In this document: piece after piece, positions 4,401 to 31,513 of the stretch | How the letters are laid out: each line of letters begins with the position of its first letter | Numbering within the stretch: position 1 is the first letter of the stretch | Source: Nitrospinota bacterium | GTDB lineage: Bacteria; Nitrospinota_A; UBA7883; JACRGQ01 | Direction of reading: 5' to 3' | Assembly (NCBI GenBank): GCA_016212275.1 | Contig: JACRGR010000051.1 | Span: 1 to 64,000, forward strand | DNA: 64,000 nt | Notes under the pieces: generated by a model | Told to the model about the DNA's origin: nothing | Databases searched by the model: none | Seen by the model: only the letters and a program-made list of their open reading frames with translations | Program-made: the position numbers and the translations under genes

Positions 4401-4431
4401 TTTTTGTACTCCGGTACTTCCCGAATTCCTT
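4401..4431. repeat. direct repeat, left copy, bounding the AT-rich island
   Basis: Thirty of 31 positions match the copy at 8489-8519 in the same orientation; the first 26 are identical. The core contains GTACTCCGGTAC. The two copies enclose the two AT-rich minus-strand genes almost exactly: the PLD-like gene stops 4 bases past this copy. This looks like an insertion-site duplication or a pair of element ends. No integrase or transposase lies between the copies. Confidence 0.85.
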
Positions 4432-4434
4432 GTG

Positions 4435-6864
4435 CTATCGTGGCCTGGGCCTCATTAGAAATTCAGCCTTTATATTTTTTGTTTCTCCCCCTATTGATCG
4501 GGCCTGAACTTGCCCTCTTAAACACGACTCAATCATTTTTACCTGAGAATCATAGTCCAAGTACACCATTCCTTCACGAACCTCCTTTAATGGGAGATTT
4601 TCAACTTTGCATTCATTCATTGAAGCATTAATTGCATTGAATATTTTATGGGCAACCCCCTCATAAACAAAACTTACATTCAAAGTATCATTAAACCAGC
4701 CTAAAATTGAGCTACTATCAGCACTTAAAGGAAAGTAATGCTGAAATATGGCTGTAAAACATGAAGCCCTATTAAGGGCATTAACGCACTCAGGAGATTC
4801 AGACTCTACCTGAACATGCACTCCCGAATTATCCAACTCTTTTACATAAGCATAGCGCGCGAAAAAGTAACCAAGAAAAATAACCGCATGATAGTTATTA
4901 ATCCTGCCCTGCACTCGCTCGTCCGACAATTCGCGCTTATCAAGGTCTGCATTAATGATTGAATAAACGACAAGCTCGGCTAGCATTAAATAAATCTCTA
5001 AATACTGATCGAATACATTATTCGCTATTAATTGTTGCTTTCTTTTTAAGTAATCTCCAATGAAGACACAAAGGTGTTCAGCAATGTCCGCGATGGTAAG
5101 AGATAAATCTTTGTTTTGTTCCTGGGGCAGATTAAATAGCAGCTCGTAGTACTTACAAATTCTTCTTCGAATATAATCTACTTCTTTAACATACTGGTCA
5201 TTTGGATCAACAGGCCCATCCGCAACCTCTTCATTTGAAACCTCCTTCCTTTTCCCTAACTGTCCCTTATCATCAGGCAATGATTCATCATCCTCCAAAG
5301 AAGCAATCTGGGGTATATTTAAGGAAGTAGCGCGGCGCTTTAAATAACCTGCACTCCATAGCCTAGAATCTGTAATGCTCCAATAATCATATTTGCCCAC
5401 TTCACTATAGCTGGGCGGCCTCACAATATTCAAAAGTGCCCCCTTAAGTGCCGCCTTTAAACGAAGATCCAACTGCCCAAACCATTCATTCAGATTTCCA
5501 ACAGCAGGAGTTTCACGAATAACTTCATTCCACATAGACCTGCTGTCCGTTGAAAGCGATTGTTTGTCTATTACCGGCATTCGATTACTAATGCTACGCC
5601 CCGCCTTATCGACAATTTCCACAGCTAGAGGTTTTTCCGTGCCAAGCAAAAGGCAAAAGTATTCCCCAGCCGCCTCATATTTGAGATCAATAATTGCTTC
5701 CTTGATCTTGTTGGCTAAAAGCGAGAAAACCCGAATAGTCGCACTCTTGGGAGATCCATCGATAACAATATCAATTTTTCTTTCACCGAACATTGCGCTC
5801 GAGATGTTAAATGGATGATCTTCTTTTTCATCATCATTGTCAGCTTTGATCTGAATCCTTTCTTTCGGAGGTTTGTCGGGAGCATCACTTCTTTCGAAAA
5901 GACTGAGCTTGAATTGCGTGTTAGACATTTTCGTCAACACAAGATATTCCTCGTTTAGCCCAACAGCCATTAAGGCGGCATAGGAACAGTTCGCGGACCC
6001 CCAAAAAACCAACGAATGGTCTTTGTAAATAAACCTGTATACTTTTGCATGAAACATCGACTTGTTTAATGTTGATGCTGCAAGTATCGCAATATCTTTC
6101 TTTTTCAAAACATCAACCATCGGTGAATAAACTTGCACCTCATCAAAACCCACCCATGCCGTTATCGGGATTCCTTTATATCTATTGCGAAATTCAATCA
6201 GCGCCCTATATGCAGGATCATAAAAGGGCGAATACACTTCAATGGAGATTAGATTTTTGATTGGAGTGGCAATTGACATCTGGCTCATCAAGGTATGTCG
6301 GTTTTTACCTGCATATAGAAAATCATTTGAGGTTGCACTATTTATCCAAGGGTTAGCCTTGACAAGGACAGCCAACCGTTCCCTCGTTAATTTATGCCAG
6401 CCAGAAAATCCACTTAAATAATGGACTGCTTCAGCAATGATTTCTTTTTGCTCACCATTTTGTTTTGAATCAGTGGAGATAGAAACGCGGGAAATAACAT
6501 CCAAGTCAGACATTAATCCATCCGCTGTTAAATTACCGGAACTCAAGAACAAAGTGATTTTATCTTTTCCAGCCAGCAGAATTAGTTTTGGATGAAATGA
6601 CTTTTTTGCTTTCTGGTTACTTAACAGCATAAGCCCAGCAAGCTTACTTGAATTTACAAGCTGTGCATCAGAAGCCAAAGCTTCTGTCACCTTCCTGCAA
6701 TCAGCTAACACGTGGCACCAGCCTGCTCCAATTGCCGGCTTTATTTTATTTTTTATAATGAAGTACGCTGATGAATAGTTAATGGAATAAGTGAGGCAAA
6801 AACAGTCATCATATCCCCTTTCATCATCTAACAAGCTGCCAATAGATGTCGGCTCAGAAATCAT
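4435..6864 (-). CDS. phospholipase D-like protein with two HKD motifs (putative nuclease, AT-rich island)
   Basis: 809 residues. Two HKD half-sites are intact: H91/K93/D101/N111 in FHPKLIL...SSGN and H272/K274/D282/N292 in FHAKVYR...GSAN, both with the spacing HxK-x7-D-x6-[SG]-S-x-N. In the PLD superfamily two such motifs make one active site, seen in nucleases, phospholipases and the PLD domains of several defence systems. After about residue 330 no family is recognised; residues 450-809 are mostly predicted helical with an acidic, low-complexity stretch at about 525-560. No signal peptide or membrane helix. Base composition is far more AT-rich than the neighbours. Its ATG overlaps the stop of the upstream gene by 11 bases, indicating translational coupling. 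Nuclease activity is inferred. Confidence 0.8.
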   Translation of the reverse strand: MISEPTSIGSLLDDERGYDDCFCLTYSINYSSAYFIIKNKIKPAIGAGWCHVLADCRKVTEALASDAQLVNSSKLAGLMLLSNQKAKKSFHPKLILLAGKDKITLFLSSGNLTADGLMSDLDVISRVSISTDSKQNGEQKEIIAEAVHYLSGFSGWHKLTRERLAVLVKANPWINSATSNDFLYAGKNRHTLMSQMSIATPIKNLISIEVYSPFYDPAYRALIEFRNRYKGIPITAWVGFDEVQVYSPMVDVLKKKDIAILAASTLNKSMFHAKVYRFIYKDHSLVFWGSANCSYAALMAVGLNEEYLVLTKMSNTQFKLSLFERSDAPDKPPKERIQIKADNDDEKEDHPFNISSAMFGERKIDIVIDGSPKSATIRVFSLLANKIKEAIIDLKYEAAGEYFCLLLGTEKPLAVEIVDKAGRSISNRMPVIDKQSLSTDSRSMWNEVIRETPAVGNLNEWFGQLDLRLKAALKGALLNIVRPPSYSEVGKYDYWSITDSRLWSAGYLKRRATSLNIPQIASLEDDESLPDDKGQLGKRKEVSNEEVADGPVDPNDQYVKEVDYIRRRICKYYELLFNLPQEQNKDLSLTIADIAEHLCVFIGDYLKRKQQLIANNVFDQYLEIYLMLAELVVYSIINADLDKRELSDERVQGRINNYHAVIFLGYFFARYAYVKELDNSGVHVQVESESPECVNALNRASCFTAIFQHYFPLSADSSSILGWFNDTLNVSFVYEGVAHKIFNAINASMNECKVENLPLKEVREGMVYLDYDSQVKMIESCLRGQVQARSIGGETKNIKAEFLMRPRPR

Positions 6865-8419
6865 AGCAAGCTCTCAACTTTTCTGTCTTGAGTTCAAATA
6901 ATTTGGCTGAAAGCCAAAGACTGATCGTAGAGTTTATGAAGTCCCTGATTCCGTAGAAGACCTGAATTTCATTAAAATTCACTTCAACTTTAAATTTACC
7001 TGATTCCTCATAGGGAGTTAATATGTACTTAGGAACTTGCCCCATCATCATTCTTAAGAGAGCATAATCATATTGTTCCTTGAGCATATTAAGGCAAAAG
7101 GAAACGACAGCATCATCAAAATCGGCATTTGCTTGTATCTTATTGGCAAATAAATGCTTTGGATTGAATGGATAGTAGTCGCCTGTCAAATTGTGATAAG
7201 CCTGCGTCGCAAATGCATCTTGTTCACTAAATATATTTGATTCATTAATAAGCCCGCCCATAACAATCCCATCTAGCCAATTTTCTTCACCTTCTACTTC
7301 CTCGAAAAGCGTTTTGTGTATATCCTTCCATGACGCACACTTTTTCCCTCGAAATTCTTTGAGGAGATCTAAATATTTGGAGGAATGCAATTTGTTTTGG
7401 GCGCGCCAAACCACCAGGTCCTGCCTAAATACTTTTTCTACATCAGAACTTTTGAGTAATACACCAGAGCCACCAAGAGCTCTTCTCAGCATTGCTACAA
7501 TCCCCGTCTCCAAACAGAAACTGGAACAGAGCATGCGCCAAATTCCTTCCATTGAAGAATATTGGTTAACGCAATGAATTGAACGATAGGTGTAAAGAGA
7601 CAAAGCGGACTCACCAAAGCCTTCTTTCTCTGACACGATATATTCTTCAAACAGATTCTTAAATTGTTTACAAGTTTCAAGATACCCCTCTCTAGCTACC
7701 TCGCCACCAAAACCTCCCTTATCAAGAATCATCATTTGAACCAATTTAATCTCTGCTTCATTCAACTTATTAACATCCAGGAGATTACCCAATTGAGCAT
7801 AAGTGGCAGAAGAAACCACTCCTGCTTCAATGGCCTTAATAAATCCTCGCCATTGGGGATTAGAACTCATAACTTCCCATGCCATTTCAGAATACTTACC
7901 CGGTACGGCATGACGTATATCCAAAACTGCGTTGTAATACCCCATTGGGCTAATCCAGTATTGAAGATAATAGCCAAATGGCCGGGTGCCATAGAATGCT
8001 TTCAATCGCCTCTTAATATCGAGAGTTTCCTTTTGCTCCATAAAAGGAGTAATTACATTTGCGCTTTCTGTAATTGATCCAGTAAACCCAGCATCAATCG
8101 TATTGCCTCTATACGCGTTATAAGTTGTATAAAGATAATGTGCCGTCTGAAACCAATACTGCCATTTCCTTAAGATTGGCTCTTTAAGGTTTTCGTAATT
8201 GCCATTATGCTCAAGGGGCAATTTATTTTGGCGTCTGAATTCCGCAATTATTGCCGGATAAATTAAAAGGGTCTTTGCACAACGAAATTGGTTGGAAGCT
8301 GCGCGACCAAGAACATATTTTCTACCGGTCTGACGTAAATAACGAAAACCGAAAAAATCCTGCCCACCCTCATTGGGCATTGCACTTAGCCATTCCGGCA
8401 TTAAACTAGTTGGCGGCAA
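6854..8419 (-). CDS. unrecognised protein, partner of the PLD-like protein
   Basis: 521 residues if the TTG at 8419 is used; a GGTAGAG sits about 5 bases upstream of it. An ATG at 8401 (residue 7) is the alternative, but has no ribosome-binding site. I recognise no family. The protein is rich in aromatic residues in its N half (WQYWF, YYLQYWISPMGYY), is predicted mainly helical, and has a few Cys (CSSFC) but no arrangement that suggests a metal site. No signal peptide or membrane helix. It has the same AT-rich composition as the downstream PLD-like gene, overlaps it by 11 bases, and shares the repeat-bounded island, so the two probably form one functional unit. No catalytic motif is visible; function unknown. 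Confidence 0.7.
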   Translation of the reverse strand: MPPTSLMPEWLSAMPNEGGQDFFGFRYLRQTGRKYVLGRAASNQFRCAKTLLIYPAIIAEFRRQNKLPLEHNGNYENLKEPILRKWQYWFQTAHYLYTTYNAYRGNTIDAGFTGSITESANVITPFMEQKETLDIKRRLKAFYGTRPFGYYLQYWISPMGYYNAVLDIRHAVPGKYSEMAWEVMSSNPQWRGFIKAIEAGVVSSATYAQLGNLLDVNKLNEAEIKLVQMMILDKGGFGGEVAREGYLETCKQFKNLFEEYIVSEKEGFGESALSLYTYRSIHCVNQYSSMEGIWRMLCSSFCLETGIVAMLRRALGGSGVLLKSSDVEKVFRQDLVVWRAQNKLHSSKYLDLLKEFRGKKCASWKDIHKTLFEEVEGEENWLDGIVMGGLINESNIFSEQDAFATQAYHNLTGDYYPFNPKHLFANKIQANADFDDAVVSFCLNMLKEQYDYALLRMMMGQVPKYILTPYEESGKFKVEVNFNEIQVFYGIRDFINSTISLWLSAKLFELKTEKLRACYDF

Positions 8420-8488
8420 ATTAACTCTACCATTAATATGGAAATATTGTCATCTATTAGCTTTTGGGAAGCAATCATTAATATTTCA

Positions 8489-8519
8489 TTTTTGTACTCC
8501 GGTACTTCCCGAATCCCTT
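8489..8519. repeat. direct repeat, right copy, bounding the AT-rich island
   Basis: Matches 4401-4431 at 30 of 31 positions, same orientation, 4088 bases apart. It lies 70 bases upstream of the start of the first island gene. The rest of the 8420-8778 gap holds a long-range hairpin (8661-8729) and no gene I can support; a 105-codon frame here (GTG start at 8718) runs through both repeat and hairpin and is not convincing. Confidence 0.85.
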
Positions 8520-8660
8520 TGGTAACAGCAATGAGGGGGTAGGGCGCGCTGATTTTATGATACCGCCTTGCCGTGAGAACCGTTTTACAGGTTGTTTTCG
8601 GTGGTACAATATAGACGAGAAGAGAGGCGGACGGCAGAACCGTCACAACAAGAAAAAGAC

Positions 8661-8729
8661 AAGGCCGCCTTGATTTAAGGAACCACCAAGCCTCCTTAAA
8701 ACCCACTAACCTCCCCACAAGGCGGCCTT
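8661..8729 (-). terminator. nested hairpin with T-run, probable terminator of the sensor operon
   Basis: AAGGCCGCCTTG (8661-8672) pairs perfectly with CAAGGCGGCCTT (8718-8729); inside, TTTAAGG (8674-8680) pairs with CCTTAAA (8694-8700). On the minus strand the structure is followed by GTCTTTTTCTTG, as expected for an intrinsic terminator about 50 bases after the stop of the kinase gene ending at 8779. The 45-base span inside the outer stem is unusually large for a simple terminator, so a small structured RNA is an alternative. Confidence 0.55.
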
Positions 8730-8778
8730 TATGTATTTATTGAGAAATGCGCCGATAAGCTGTTGATGCTAAATGCTG

Positions 8779-10254
8779 TTAGATGATGAATCGTCGGATG
8801 CGGGGAATCAGTTCTTCCACCACGAACGGCTTTACCAGGAAGTCGTCCGCGCCCAGTTTGAACGCCCGCTCCCGGTCGTTGATGTCCGCGCGGATGGTGA
8901 TGACGATGACCGGCACGAGCTTTGTGCGGGGATTTTTCCGCAGGTACTCCAATAGGGCGAAACCATCCATCACGGGCATGATGATGTCGGTGATGATGAT
9001 GTGGGGGGTGTGTTCTTCCAGTTGAACGATGGCGTCCTTGCCGTTTTCCGCCTCCAGTATCTCCACGTCCATTTTGGCGATGTGTTCGCGGAACAGGATG
9101 CGCATGATCCGGTCGTCGTCCACGAGCAGGATTTTCGGTTTGACGACCGGCAGGATGGCGTAGAAGGTGCTTCCTTTCCCTTTTTCCGATTCCACGGTGA
9201 TGGCCCCGTTGTGGGTGGCCATGATGTCGTGGCTCAGCGGCAGGCCGAGGCCGGTCCCTTTTTCCCCCGCGGTGCCGGGGGTGGTGGTTTTTTCTTCCCG
9301 TTTGAAAAGGTTGGGGAGCACCTCCGGCGCGATGCCCACCCCCTCGTCCCTCACGGCGAGGGTCGCCTTGTGGCCATCCGGGGTGAAGAGGGTGACCATA
9401 CTGTTTTTGTGCGAGAACTTGATGGCGTTGGATACGAGGTTGTAGACCACTTCGGTGAAGAGGTTCACGTCGGCGTACAGCCGGGTGCCTTCCGGCACGT
9501 TGTTGACGAGCTTTATCCCCTTCTGTTCGGCGAGGAAGGACATGCGGTCAATGGCGGCCATCGCCACGAAGTGGCCATCCAGAAACCTGCGCTGAAGCGT
9601 TACCGAGCCGGTCTGGAGCCTGCTGATGTTCAGCAGTTCCTCGATGAGCATGATCATGCTGTCGGTGGCGGCCATCGCCTGCGCGATCACCGCTTTGTGC
9701 TTGGGGTGTGGTTCGGGGTCGGTGTCCATGTTCAGCAATTTCATCGAAAGTTCCAGCCCGGTGAGGGGCGCCCGCAGGTCGTGCGCCACCAGCGATACGA
9801 ACTTGTCCTTGATGGCGGTGGCCTCTTCGGCCTTCCGTTTCGCGGTGAGCAGTTCCTCTTCTATTTTGAATCGTTCGATGGCGTAGCGGATGGTGCGGGT
9901 GAGGGAGTCCATGTCCGTCTGCCCCTTCACCAGGTATTCCTGCGCGCCGTGCTTCACGGCCATGATGGCCAGTTCCTCGTCGTTCAACCCGGTCATGATG
10001 ATGATCGGGATGGCGGCCGTGGCGGAGCGCATGCGGATGAGGGTGCTCAGCCCCTGCTCGTCGGGGAGCGAGAGATCGAGCAACACCACGTCGAACCCCT
10101 GCGTGTCCAGTTCCAGAAGGGTCAGCGCCTCGGCCATGCGCTCCACATGGGTGATGTGGAACAGCCCCTTGCCGGTTTCGGCCACGGCTTCCCGCACCAG
10201 CCGCGCATCGGCCATGTTGTCTTCCACCAGCAGTATCTTGTAGTTACCCGCCAT
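8779..10254 (-). CDS. hybrid response regulator-histidine kinase (REC-HisKA-HATPase-REC)
   Basis: 491 residues. N-terminal receiver domain with phospho-acceptor D60 (VVLLDLSLP) and acidic pair E11-D12; HisKA with H158 in VAHDLRAPL; HATPase_c with N box (NLVSNAIKFSH), G1 (DEGVGIAPE) and G2 (GTGLGLPLSHDI); and a second receiver in about the last 120 residues (LLVDDD, IIITDIIMPVMDG, VKPF). No membrane segments. It is likely a cytoplasmic phosphorelay hub that receives phosphate at the first REC and passes it inside the protein or to another regulator. Its ATG overlaps the end of the upstream single-domain REC gene by 11 bases, so the three sensor genes at 8.8-13.4 kb form one operon. Confidence 0.92.
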   Translation of the reverse strand: MAGNYKILLVEDNMADARLVREAVAETGKGLFHITHVERMAEALTLLELDTQGFDVVLLDLSLPDEQGLSTLIRMRSATAAIPIIIMTGLNDEELAIMAVKHGAQEYLVKGQTDMDSLTRTIRYAIERFKIEEELLTAKRKAEEATAIKDKFVSLVAHDLRAPLTGLELSMKLLNMDTDPEPHPKHKAVIAQAMAATDSMIMLIEELLNISRLQTGSVTLQRRFLDGHFVAMAAIDRMSFLAEQKGIKLVNNVPEGTRLYADVNLFTEVVYNLVSNAIKFSHKNSMVTLFTPDGHKATLAVRDEGVGIAPEVLPNLFKREEKTTTPGTAGEKGTGLGLPLSHDIMATHNGAITVESEKGKGSTFYAILPVVKPKILLVDDDRIMRILFREHIAKMDVEILEAENGKDAIVQLEEHTPHIIITDIIMPVMDGFALLEYLRKNPRTKLVPVIVITIRADINDRERAFKLGADDFLVKPFVVEELIPRIRRFII

Positions 10255-29003: not shown

Positions 29004-30398
29004 TTAATTTTCCTCGTCGTTGCGGACGGGAATAGGTTCCGGCTCGGTATGGATGGCGTCAAGTTCGCCGTCCCAAAGGTATTTTTTGGTCATGCCGACG
29101 ATAACGCCATTGAGCAATATGAGCGAAACGAGGTTCGGGATAGCCATCAGCGCGTTTGCGGCGTCCGCCATGTCCCACACCAGCGGGAGCGGCATCACGG
29201 AGCCGACCATCACGGCGATGACCCACAGCACGCGGTAGGGGAGGATGGCCCGTTTGCCGAAGAGGTATTCGGTGGTGCGCTCGCCGTAGTAGCTCCAGCC
29301 GAGTATGGTGGAGTAAACGAACGTCAGCAGGCCCACGGTCAGTACCACCGGCCCCACATACGGGATGTAGGCGAACGCCGCCTTGGTGAGCGCCGCTCCC
29401 TGCAATCCCTGAAACGAATCCGGTTCGCGCAAGATGGTGGTGACGAGCACCAAGCCGGTCATGGCGCACACCACCACGGTGTCCCAGAACGTGCCGGTGG
29501 AGGAGACCAAGGCCTGCCGCACCGGGTTTTTTGTTTTTGCGGCGGCGGCCACGATGGGGGCCGAGCCGAGTCCCGATTCGTTGGAGAACAGGCCGCGCGC
29601 GATGCCGTAGCGCGCCGCCATCATCATGGTGGCCCCCGCGAACCCGCCCCCGGCGGCGGTGGGGGTGAACGCGGAGTCCACGATAAGCTGAATGGCGGGA
29701 ATGAGGTACGCGGCGTTTAACGCAAGGATGATGGCGCACCCCGCGACGTAAAACGCCGCCATGAACGGCACCAGCTTTTCGCACACCACGGCGATAGATC
29801 TGATGCCGCCCAAAATGACGAATGCGGTCATCACCGTCAGCACGAGGCCGGTAATGTACGGGGAGATGTGGAACGTCTCATCCACCAGTGTCGAAATCGA
29901 GTTCGCCTGCACCATATTGCCGATGCCGAACGCCGCGAACGAGGTGAAGATGCAAAAGAGGACGGCGAGCCATTTTTGTTTGAGTCCTTTTTCCAGCGCG
30001 TACATCGGTCCGCCCAGCATTTCGCCGGTCTCGGTTTTCTGCCGGTAGGCAACCGAGAGGAGCGCCTCGGAGTATTTGGTTGCGATGCCGAACACGCCGG
30101 TCAGCCACATCCACAGCACCGCTCCGGGGCCGCCCAGCGCCACGGCGGTGGCCACGCCCACGATGTTGCCGGTGCCGATGGTGGCGGCCAAAGCGGTGGT
30201 AAGCGCGCCGAACGGGCTTACGTCGCCGTGCCCTTCCTCATCTTTGTTCACCGAAAGTTTGATCGCCAATGGCGTGTACCGCTGGATGAACCGCAGGCGG
30301 AGCGTGAGGAAAATGTGCGTGCCGAACAGGAGGGCCAGCATCGGCGGCCCCCACAGGTAGCCGTTGAGCCAGGTGACAAAGCCGTGAAACGTTTCCAT
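29004..30398 (-). CDS. alanine/glycine:cation symporter (AGCS family)
   Basis: 464 residues, about ten to eleven hydrophobic segments. Signature stretches of the family are present: FGALTTALAATIGTGNIVGVATA, the segment GGPGAVLWMW and FSNESGLGSAPIVAAAAKT. AGCS proteins take up alanine or glycine with sodium or protons at the inner membrane. No ribosome-binding site is obvious before the ATG at 30398. The gene stands alone, with a gene-poor AT-rich gap of more than 370 bases upstream in which no glycine riboswitch or other RNA is recognised. Confidence 0.92.
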   Translation of the reverse strand: METFHGFVTWLNGYLWGPPMLALLFGTHIFLTLRLRFIQRYTPLAIKLSVNKDEEGHGDVSPFGALTTALAATIGTGNIVGVATAVALGGPGAVLWMWLTGVFGIATKYSEALLSVAYRQKTETGEMLGGPMYALEKGLKQKWLAVLFCIFTSFAAFGIGNMVQANSISTLVDETFHISPYITGLVLTVMTAFVILGGIRSIAVVCEKLVPFMAAFYVAGCAIILALNAAYLIPAIQLIVDSAFTPTAAGGGFAGATMMMAARYGIARGLFSNESGLGSAPIVAAAAKTKNPVRQALVSSTGTFWDTVVVCAMTGLVLVTTILREPDSFQGLQGAALTKAAFAYIPYVGPVVLTVGLLTFVYSTILGWSYYGERTTEYLFGKRAILPYRVLWVIAVMVGSVMPLPLVWDMADAANALMAIPNLVSLILLNGVIVGMTKKYLWDGELDAIHTEPEPIPVRNDEEN

Positions 30399-30774
30399 CG
30401 GGGGAGGATTATATCTTTCCGTGCCGGCTTTTGGAATCTTTATTTGGTGAGGTGGTGTGGAAAGGAGAAGCGGAATTATTCGGTATTTTCAATCATCCCA
30501 GTGGCCGGTTTGAACCCGTTGTTCCCAAGTCTTCCAAAGGGTTTTATTGGGACATGCAAATCCCCAATAAAATGTTTGCGCAGATGTGCCAATGATTAAT
30601 ACTTGAGTAAATCCTAATACTCCTCTAAAGAACGAAAGAAAAAAGAGTGTTGAACATGAGCTAAAACCACGGCTTGAACATAAACGATAAAAAGGCTTTG
30701 GATGAGAAGTAATGAAGAGTGCAAGAATTTCTCACCTGAATACTGGGCATCATTGAAATAACTTTTATTCGAGC
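30399..30774. other. gene-free AT-richer gap
   Basis: About 376 bases with no supportable gene, hairpin terminator or RNA motif. Composition becomes AT-rich from about 30590 onward, matching the following small frame and the toxin-antitoxin pair. Only the probable promoter of the symporter gene is expected here; an ATATAAT hexamer (minus strand, near 30413) lies just upstream of its start. Confidence 0.4.
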
Positions 30775-30993
30775 TTACGGTAAAACAAGCGCCGGAAAAG
30801 ATACGGTAATTCCAAAAAATGTAATGCCGGTTGCGTAGACTCCATCAGTTGGGGGAGAGCTAATTGCTTGAGACATGAAATATATGGTCGTAATGAGAAT
30901 TGTTGGTACAGCAATAAAACGGCTTGCCCAATAGTAAAGTATAGGAAATTCAGGCTTTGTATAAACCCGCTTCAAAAATCCACGCCAATCCAT
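30775..30993 (-). CDS. small hypothetical membrane protein (doubtful)
   Basis: 72 residues with two hydrophobic stretches (about 25-44 and 53-70). It has an ATG start but no clear ribosome-binding site, and lies in an AT-rich patch between the symporter and the brnTA pair. It may be a real small membrane protein, a gene fragment or noise; I recognise no family. Confidence 0.35.
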   Translation of the reverse strand: MDWRGFLKRVYTKPEFPILYYWASRFIAVPTILITTIYFMSQAISSPPTDGVYATGITFFGITVSFPALVLP

Positions 30994-31032
30994 GGCTGTA
31001 ATTCTAACAGGAAAATTGTGTTTATTTTTTGG

Positions 31033-31266
31033 TTAGCGATGGTAATGAGAGGCATACAGGTCCACCACCTGCCGGATCATTTTCTGGTACGAGGTGCGCT
31101 TCTCTTTCGCTTTTTTTTTGAAAAAATCCACGCTGTTCTTTTTCAGGGAGATCGTGATCTTTACGTTCTCCTCCTTCAAGGCCAATTGATCCGGCGGGGG
31201 AAGGAAATCTTTTACGACCTTCAGGTTTCCCTTTAGCCCATCAGTATATTTTATTTTGTTTTTCAT
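31033..31266 (-). CDS. brnA: BrnA-like antitoxin (CopG-type)
   Basis: 77 residues. The C-terminal half (VKITISLKKNSVDFFKKKA...YQKMIRQVVDLYA) has the short beta strand and two helices of a ribbon-helix-helix DNA-binding domain, preceded by a basic and proline-containing arm. It overlaps the BrnT-like toxin gene by 26 bases and follows it, the order normal for brnTA modules. The antitoxin should bind BrnT and repress the operon. Family call rests on both the RHH pattern and the neighbour. Confidence 0.78.
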   Translation of the reverse strand: MKNKIKYTDGLKGNLKVVKDFLPPPDQLALKEENVKITISLKKNSVDFFKKKAKEKRTSYQKMIRQVVDLYASHYHR

Positions 31267-31513
31267 AAATCCTTTTCCCTTTCCGCCAATATCCGGCCCC
31301 GTAAATGCGGATGGTATTGCCTCGATAGGTGAACCGGACGGTAATCAGTCCATCGTTGACGCGGCCGATGCAGTAATATCTGTCCTCTTTCCCGCTATGG
31401 CTGACATCCTCCACGATGACACGCCGGGGGTCGAGGAAAGCATGCTGTGCCACAGTGAAAGAAACATCATGCTTGCCCTGGTTGTCCTTATCTTTTTGTT
31501 CATTACCATTCAA
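31241..31513 (-). CDS. brnT: BrnT-like ribonuclease toxin, N-terminus apparently frameshifted
   Basis: 90 residues from a TTG. The core is BrnT-like: NQGKHDVSFTVAQHAF, DPRRVI, a His-Ser-Gly-x-E turn, RYYCIGR, and TVRFTYRGNTIRIYGA. BrnT is a RelE-fold mRNA interferase. The usual start of the family (xFEWD/N-x-x-K) is missing from this frame but is encoded just upstream in another frame: reading from the GTG at 31529 gives MRRTGFEW and then a stop, and leaving out one base at 31505 would join it to NEQKDKDNQGKHDV. So the gene probably carries a 1-base insertion (natural or a sequencing error). Toxin activity of the present form is doubtful. Confidence 0.7.
   Translation of the reverse strand: MNGNEQKDKDNQGKHDVSFTVAQHAFLDPRRVIVEDVSHSGKEDRYYCIGRVNDGLITVRFTYRGNTIRIYGAGYWRKGKRIYEKQNKIY

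Follow-up and report, generated by a model that had tools for sequence, protein, structure and literature searches.

Wedged into a block of signalling genes on a contig of a Nitrospinota bacterium lies a low-GC island of about 4.1 kb, which contains two overlapping genes and is framed by two nearly identical direct repeats. This raises the question of what the two genes do together and whether the repeats tell how they arrived there. A preliminary description of the window, by which we mean the whole stretch of 64,000 nucleotides analysed here, had proposed a mobile and previously undescribed defence or DNA-processing module. To answer the question we looked at the island itself, at its insertion site, at the families of both proteins and at the genes found next to their relatives.

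Results and Discussion

Composition and origin of the island

The features referred to in the following are listed here with their positions in the window:

4401–4431, no strand: left 31-nt direct repeat, 30/31 identity to the right copy
4401–8519, no strand: low-GC island, regarded as acquired from its composition and the absence of the pair from the other genomes of the phylum
4435–6864, minus strand: gene B, PLD-superfamily, ZacB-like, 809 aa
6854–8419, minus strand: gene A, partner protein with a TTG start, 521 aa
8489–8519, no strand: right 31-nt direct repeat, where the gene order departs from the cluster of gmhA, RNA-like element and kinase seen in relatives
8605–8739, plus strand: RNA-like element, a TATAAT-type box followed by a long hairpin with a C-rich loop

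The observations described for the island could be confirmed. The repeats match at 30 of 31 positions and are 4088 nt apart, and the open reading frames of 809 and 521 amino acids, both on the minus strand, overlap by 11 nt and are the only long genes between them. The distance from the left repeat to the stop codon of gene B is 3 nt and about 70 nt separate the start of gene A from the right repeat upstream of it, and thus the repeats frame the A-B operon tightly. No further copy of the 20-nt repeat core was found in the window (0 expected in shuffled sequences), and a search of the whole genome (2.19 Mb) gave the two copies and one chance-level hit with three mismatches. On one side the island is flanked by a FIST gene and a histidine kinase, on the other side by a histidine kinase and response regulators, in agreement with the signalling context that had been noted. 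The list of open reading frames shows no integrase, transposase or helicase inside the island, again as described, and no tRNA was found within the 64-kb window; the island thus has neither the internal integrase nor the tRNA attachment site of an integrase-borne genomic island.

The AT-richness, previously counted on sample lines, holds for the island as a whole, with a GC content of 39.9% at 4432–8488 compared to 58.8% in the remainder of the window. The 4-kb windows outside the island have a mean of 58.9% with a standard deviation of 1.5%, and the GC3 of genes A and B is 0.37–0.38, compared to 0.70–0.84 in the neighbouring genes. Searches of the remaining 23 genomes of the phylum brought up no match for either gene. 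Horizontal acquisition of the A-B island is therefore well supported, by the deviating GC and GC3 as well as by the missing matches within the phylum. A second low-GC stretch, with 43–50% GC and few long open reading frames, is located at 30001–31500 of the window.

Insertion site and direct repeats

The sequence beside the island resembles that of relatives up to about the promoter-like box of the RNA-like element near position 8600, where the island and the FIST gene replace gmhA (phosphoheptose isomerase), and consequently the right repeat sits at the break of synteny. The gmhA gene is absent at 8520–8600 and was not found elsewhere in the window or in the next 19 kb. In five relatives (G002, G005, G007, G009 and G010) a conserved RNA-like element is present beside gmhA, and in three of them it sits between gmhA and the kinase orthologue. 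The hairpin of this element has a z-score of -3.45 and three of its pairs show compensatory changes; Rfam gave no family at threshold, and we regard the element as a candidate small RNA of its bacterial family. A 105-aa open reading frame that extends across the right repeat is unlikely to be a gene, as its matches below E 0.01 in the relatives are only short stretches of the hairpin element. The kinase/response-regulator protein encoded at 8779–10254 has 18 strong matches in the 2.2 Mb of the G000 genome.

The FIST-side flank had no match, neither as DNA nor as protein, in ten family genomes, and the kinase orthologues of the relatives have different neighbours. No empty site with a single repeat copy was found in the relatives, as they do not share the same flanks, and with a left flank other than the ancestral neighbour there is no way to rebuild a simple empty site.

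The repeats had been taken as the boundaries of a mobile module. In 71 related loci with enough flanking sequence the top score for direct repeats across the pair was 14, compared to 28 here, and 387 control window pairs used as background also reached a maximum of 14. This rules out that the repeats are conserved termini of the module, and they mark only this insertion: the pair was acquired horizontally, as proposed, but the repeats are no property of the module. They were also rejected as a repetitive element or a phage att site, with only two copies in the genome, matches at chance level in the family genomes and none on viral contigs. We consider the 31-nt repeats to be the scar of this insertion, formed via an att-like crossover, a long target duplication or recombination, and the machinery that left them would have been encoded outside of the island. 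Both repeats contain on the minus strand an open frame for GIREVPEYK, which may stem from the 3' end of a gene that has been lost and had been the insertion site, or may be chance.

Gene B encodes a PLD-superfamily protein

The assignment of B as PLD-like is substantiated by two intact HxK...N motifs, H91/K93/N111 and H272/K274/N292, which together with E306 are invariant in an alignment of 51 B sequences including the one from the window, and by a fold match to Tdp1. As the alignment shows no conservation of the canonical HKD aspartate, the motif of B is HKN, which is likewise found in Tdp1. The Pfam family PLDc_2 matches slightly below its cut-off, and the PADLOC model for ZacB gives a partial match (residues 85–324) with an E-value of 4e-11 and 40 bits. 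The AlphaFold2 model of B is confident for about residues 8–440 and poor beyond, the C-terminal half being of low confidence, and shows a beta-rich middle domain (about 352–418) and a helical C-terminus. Its closest folds in the PDB are Tdp1 (E 2e-10) and PLD3/4, followed by SauUSI, the NgoAVII R protein and BfiI; most of the matches are nucleic-acid phosphodiesterases, with polyphosphate kinase also among them. Motifs and predicted fold make a PLD-superfamily phosphodiesterase or nuclease, of the Tdp1/BfiI type, the most likely identity of B. While it resembles these five in the predicted fold with two H-K-N half-sites, B has long additional beta and helical regions and a separate partner protein. 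SauUSI carries a fused helicase and BfiI a B3-like recognition domain, neither of which is fused to B.

BLASTP with B from the window detected relatives with E-values down to 6e-18, a tblastn search of plasmids added 13 distant relatives, and a profile-derived scan using one genome per species yielded 118 B-related loci, 80 of which were kept. Close relatives of the window protein were found neither in the 385 genomes searched nor in phages.

Genes A and B form a conserved unit

In 87 of 88 related loci B is accompanied by A, and the sole exception begins at a contig end. As in the window, a homologue of A almost always lies directly upstream of the homologue of B, most commonly with an overlap of exactly 4 nt (55 loci). 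Two variations were observed, namely a fusion of A and B to one 985-aa protein in Pseudovibrio (L082, 370–3327) and the reversed order, with B preceding A, in a Pseudobdellovibrionaceae MAG (L064, 9839–14139). All four relatives of B on viral contigs have A as well. The tree distances of A and B correlate with r = 0.94, a value not reached in any of 1000 permutations. No third gene is common to the loci, and 30 of 84 have no close co-directional neighbour. According to the record titles the pair occurs in about 16 bacterial phyla: Pseudomonadota, Campylobacterota, Desulfobacterota, Bacillota, Actinomycetota, Bacteroidota, Planctomycetota, Chloroflexota, Gemmatimonadota, Acidobacteriota, Myxococcota, Bdellovibrionota, Omnitrophota, KSB1, Parcubacteria and Caldisericota.

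Gene A has no match in Pfam or NCBIfam. The proteins encoded directly upstream of B in the related loci, mostly 490–560 aa long, form one family, from which A of the window has strongly diverged, with 10–16% identity to its relatives. BLASTP with seven plasmid members did not find it significantly, an initial scan of the genome collection with A alone gave zero matches, no close relative was found on plasmids, and its alignment to the family with hhalign was marginal. Made from 80 members with the window protein left out, a profile ranked it at the top of 318 window ORFs with an E-value of 4.8e-4 (runner-up 0.22) and also first against 525 control proteins, with a collinear alignment over residues 4 to 232; in a narrower profile made from the distant members alone it did not rank first. 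Of the near-invariant residues W10, G19, D21, G24, R46, G114, G174, W294 and R492 are kept, and those at positions 50, 56, 92, 450, 457 and 504 are lost. Judged from these comparisons, A of the window appears to be a real but very divergent member of the family, and because of this divergence and the missing residues the window copy of the pair may be functionally changed or decaying. The model of A (pLDDT 75, moderate; pTM 0.81) consists mainly of helices, with a short hairpin at the C-terminus, and its fold had no match among PDB or viral structures.

Relation to Azaca and other known systems

The closest named proteins to the A and B families are ZacA and ZacB from Azaca, a system consisting of ZacA, ZacB and ZacC and attributed to Millman et al. 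2022 (PMC10952713). PLD proteins have been described in Azaca and Mokosh (PMC10952713), and ZacC is a helicase (PMC12278908). When we applied our profiles to a genuine Azaca locus, in which genes for ZacA (410 aa), ZacB (609 aa) and ZacC (1060 aa) follow each other, the A-family profile identified ZacA as the top ORF (1.6e-7) via its N-terminal motif and the B profile identified ZacB (1.3e-5). The pair has in common with Azaca the gene order A-B, a PLD protein with a HAK...GSAN motif and, in the A family and ZacA, the N-terminal motif 'GlDpLG...LxPGItnvTlRaRYyslypW'. It differs in having no SNF2-type helicase ZacC and in the larger size of its proteins, with about 490–560 aa for A compared to 410 for ZacA and about 780–900 aa for B compared to 609 for ZacB. 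The PADLOC model for ZacA did not match A of the window at E<=1 and gave weak matches to its relatives (E about 1e-3 to 1e-2), so that the homology between window A and ZacA is reached through the A-family HMM only. ZacC had no match in the genome as assembled, which is 83% complete, and the locus therefore has neither a ZacC beside a ZacA-ZacB pair nor a recognised ZacA. The sequence comparisons thus suggest a relative of the A-B part of Azaca that would work in a similar way but stands outside Azaca by membership.

This bears on the claim of novelty. As distant relatives of ZacA and ZacB, A and B are not wholly undescribed in kind, but a recurrent two-gene unit without ZacC is indeed what we found, and no paper on a helicase-less ZacAB pair was retrieved from the open-access literature, subscription papers being outside of the search. 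DISARM and Mokosh, which had been named for comparison, share with the pair a PLD domain in a defence context. The match of DrmC to B is weak, however (16.2 bits, curated cut-off 133), and the island has none of their other genes, including DrmA and DrmB of DISARM and the helicase that accompanies PLD in Mokosh.

Defence and mobile genes beside related loci

The preliminary description had suggested looking for the pair near other defence genes in unrelated genomes, and this is where it was often found. Among the neighbours of related loci, clusters are formed by UvrD-type helicases, by recombinases of the tyrosine and serine types and by subunits of type I restriction–modification (RM) systems, and Pfam identified integrases, with phage integrases among them, and transposases. 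HsdR is encoded directly before A in two loci (L068 and L086). PADLOC at 1e-20 assigned among 79 neighbours type I methyltransferase and specificity subunits, IetS, QatC, SoFic, MADS, RTasNERD-Hel, PDC-S24 and AriA. Matches to defence genes or integrases were seen in 0 of 28 control genes, a comparison in which the neighbours are a non-random sample and the controls come from one lineage, that of the window. One plasmid copy of the pair follows genes annotated as OmpA, EH-signature and SNF2, an order that corresponds to ZorB-ZorC-ZorD in type I Zorya. The pair in the window has no adjoining defence gene.

Proposed function and alternatives

We consider it likely that the pair is a helicase-independent two-gene relative of the Azaca A-B module, and probably a nuclease-based defence system. 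The two HKN half-sites of B would come together as a single active site that forms a phospho-histidine intermediate and needs neither ATP nor metal. A would bind B in a complex, recognise the DNA of an invader or some different sign of infection and then license B, or alternatively keep B silent until infection occurs. Together they would cut incoming phage or plasmid DNA, or the host DNA as a form of abortive infection.

A toxin–antitoxin-like abortive module, with B as toxic nuclease and A as its inhibitor, B being released upon infection or loss of the element, would also explain the strict order of A before B, their translational overlap and co-evolution and their carriage on plasmids. Both proteins are far larger than usual in such pairs, though, a fusion of A and B exists, and the similarity to Azaca points to an effector complex of several proteins, which makes this reading unlikely. 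Somewhat less likely still is a decayed Azaca that has lost ZacC and its function: several conserved residues are gone from window A and this genome has no ZacC, but both reading frames are open, B has kept every invariant catalytic residue, and across 84 loci from many phyla a fixed third gene is generally missing, rather than having been lost locally.

The pair could also be the DNA-processing machinery of a small self-moving element, in which B would join DNA at the 31-nt repeats, forming phospho-histidine DNA joints, and A would bind the ends. The tight framing of the operon and the clearly foreign island fit to this, as does the nearest fold, since Tdp1 acts on covalent protein–DNA joints. 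Given that no flanking repeats above background exist in the 71 related loci, and that relatives are found in defence clusters, next to genes of type I RM systems and on plasmids, all of them settings in which mobility is supplied by other genes, we regard it as very improbable.

Conclusion

Within the preferred reading, that of a defence pair related to Azaca, a more far-reaching version seems to us evenly balanced between right and wrong. It sees in A and B a widespread, unrecognised immune pair of a Tdp1-like double-HKN nuclease and a partner with a new fold, acting with no helicase, ATPase or modification enzyme, and representing the minimal core from which Azaca was built or to which it was reduced. 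If the pair is protective, it would rank with the smaller known defences of the nuclease kind, and half of Azaca, the A-B part, would be able to act without a motor protein. The roles of ZacA and ZacB would then become testable, and the A family, which has no entry in Pfam and only marginal ZacA matches in the PADLOC version searched, would gain an annotation.
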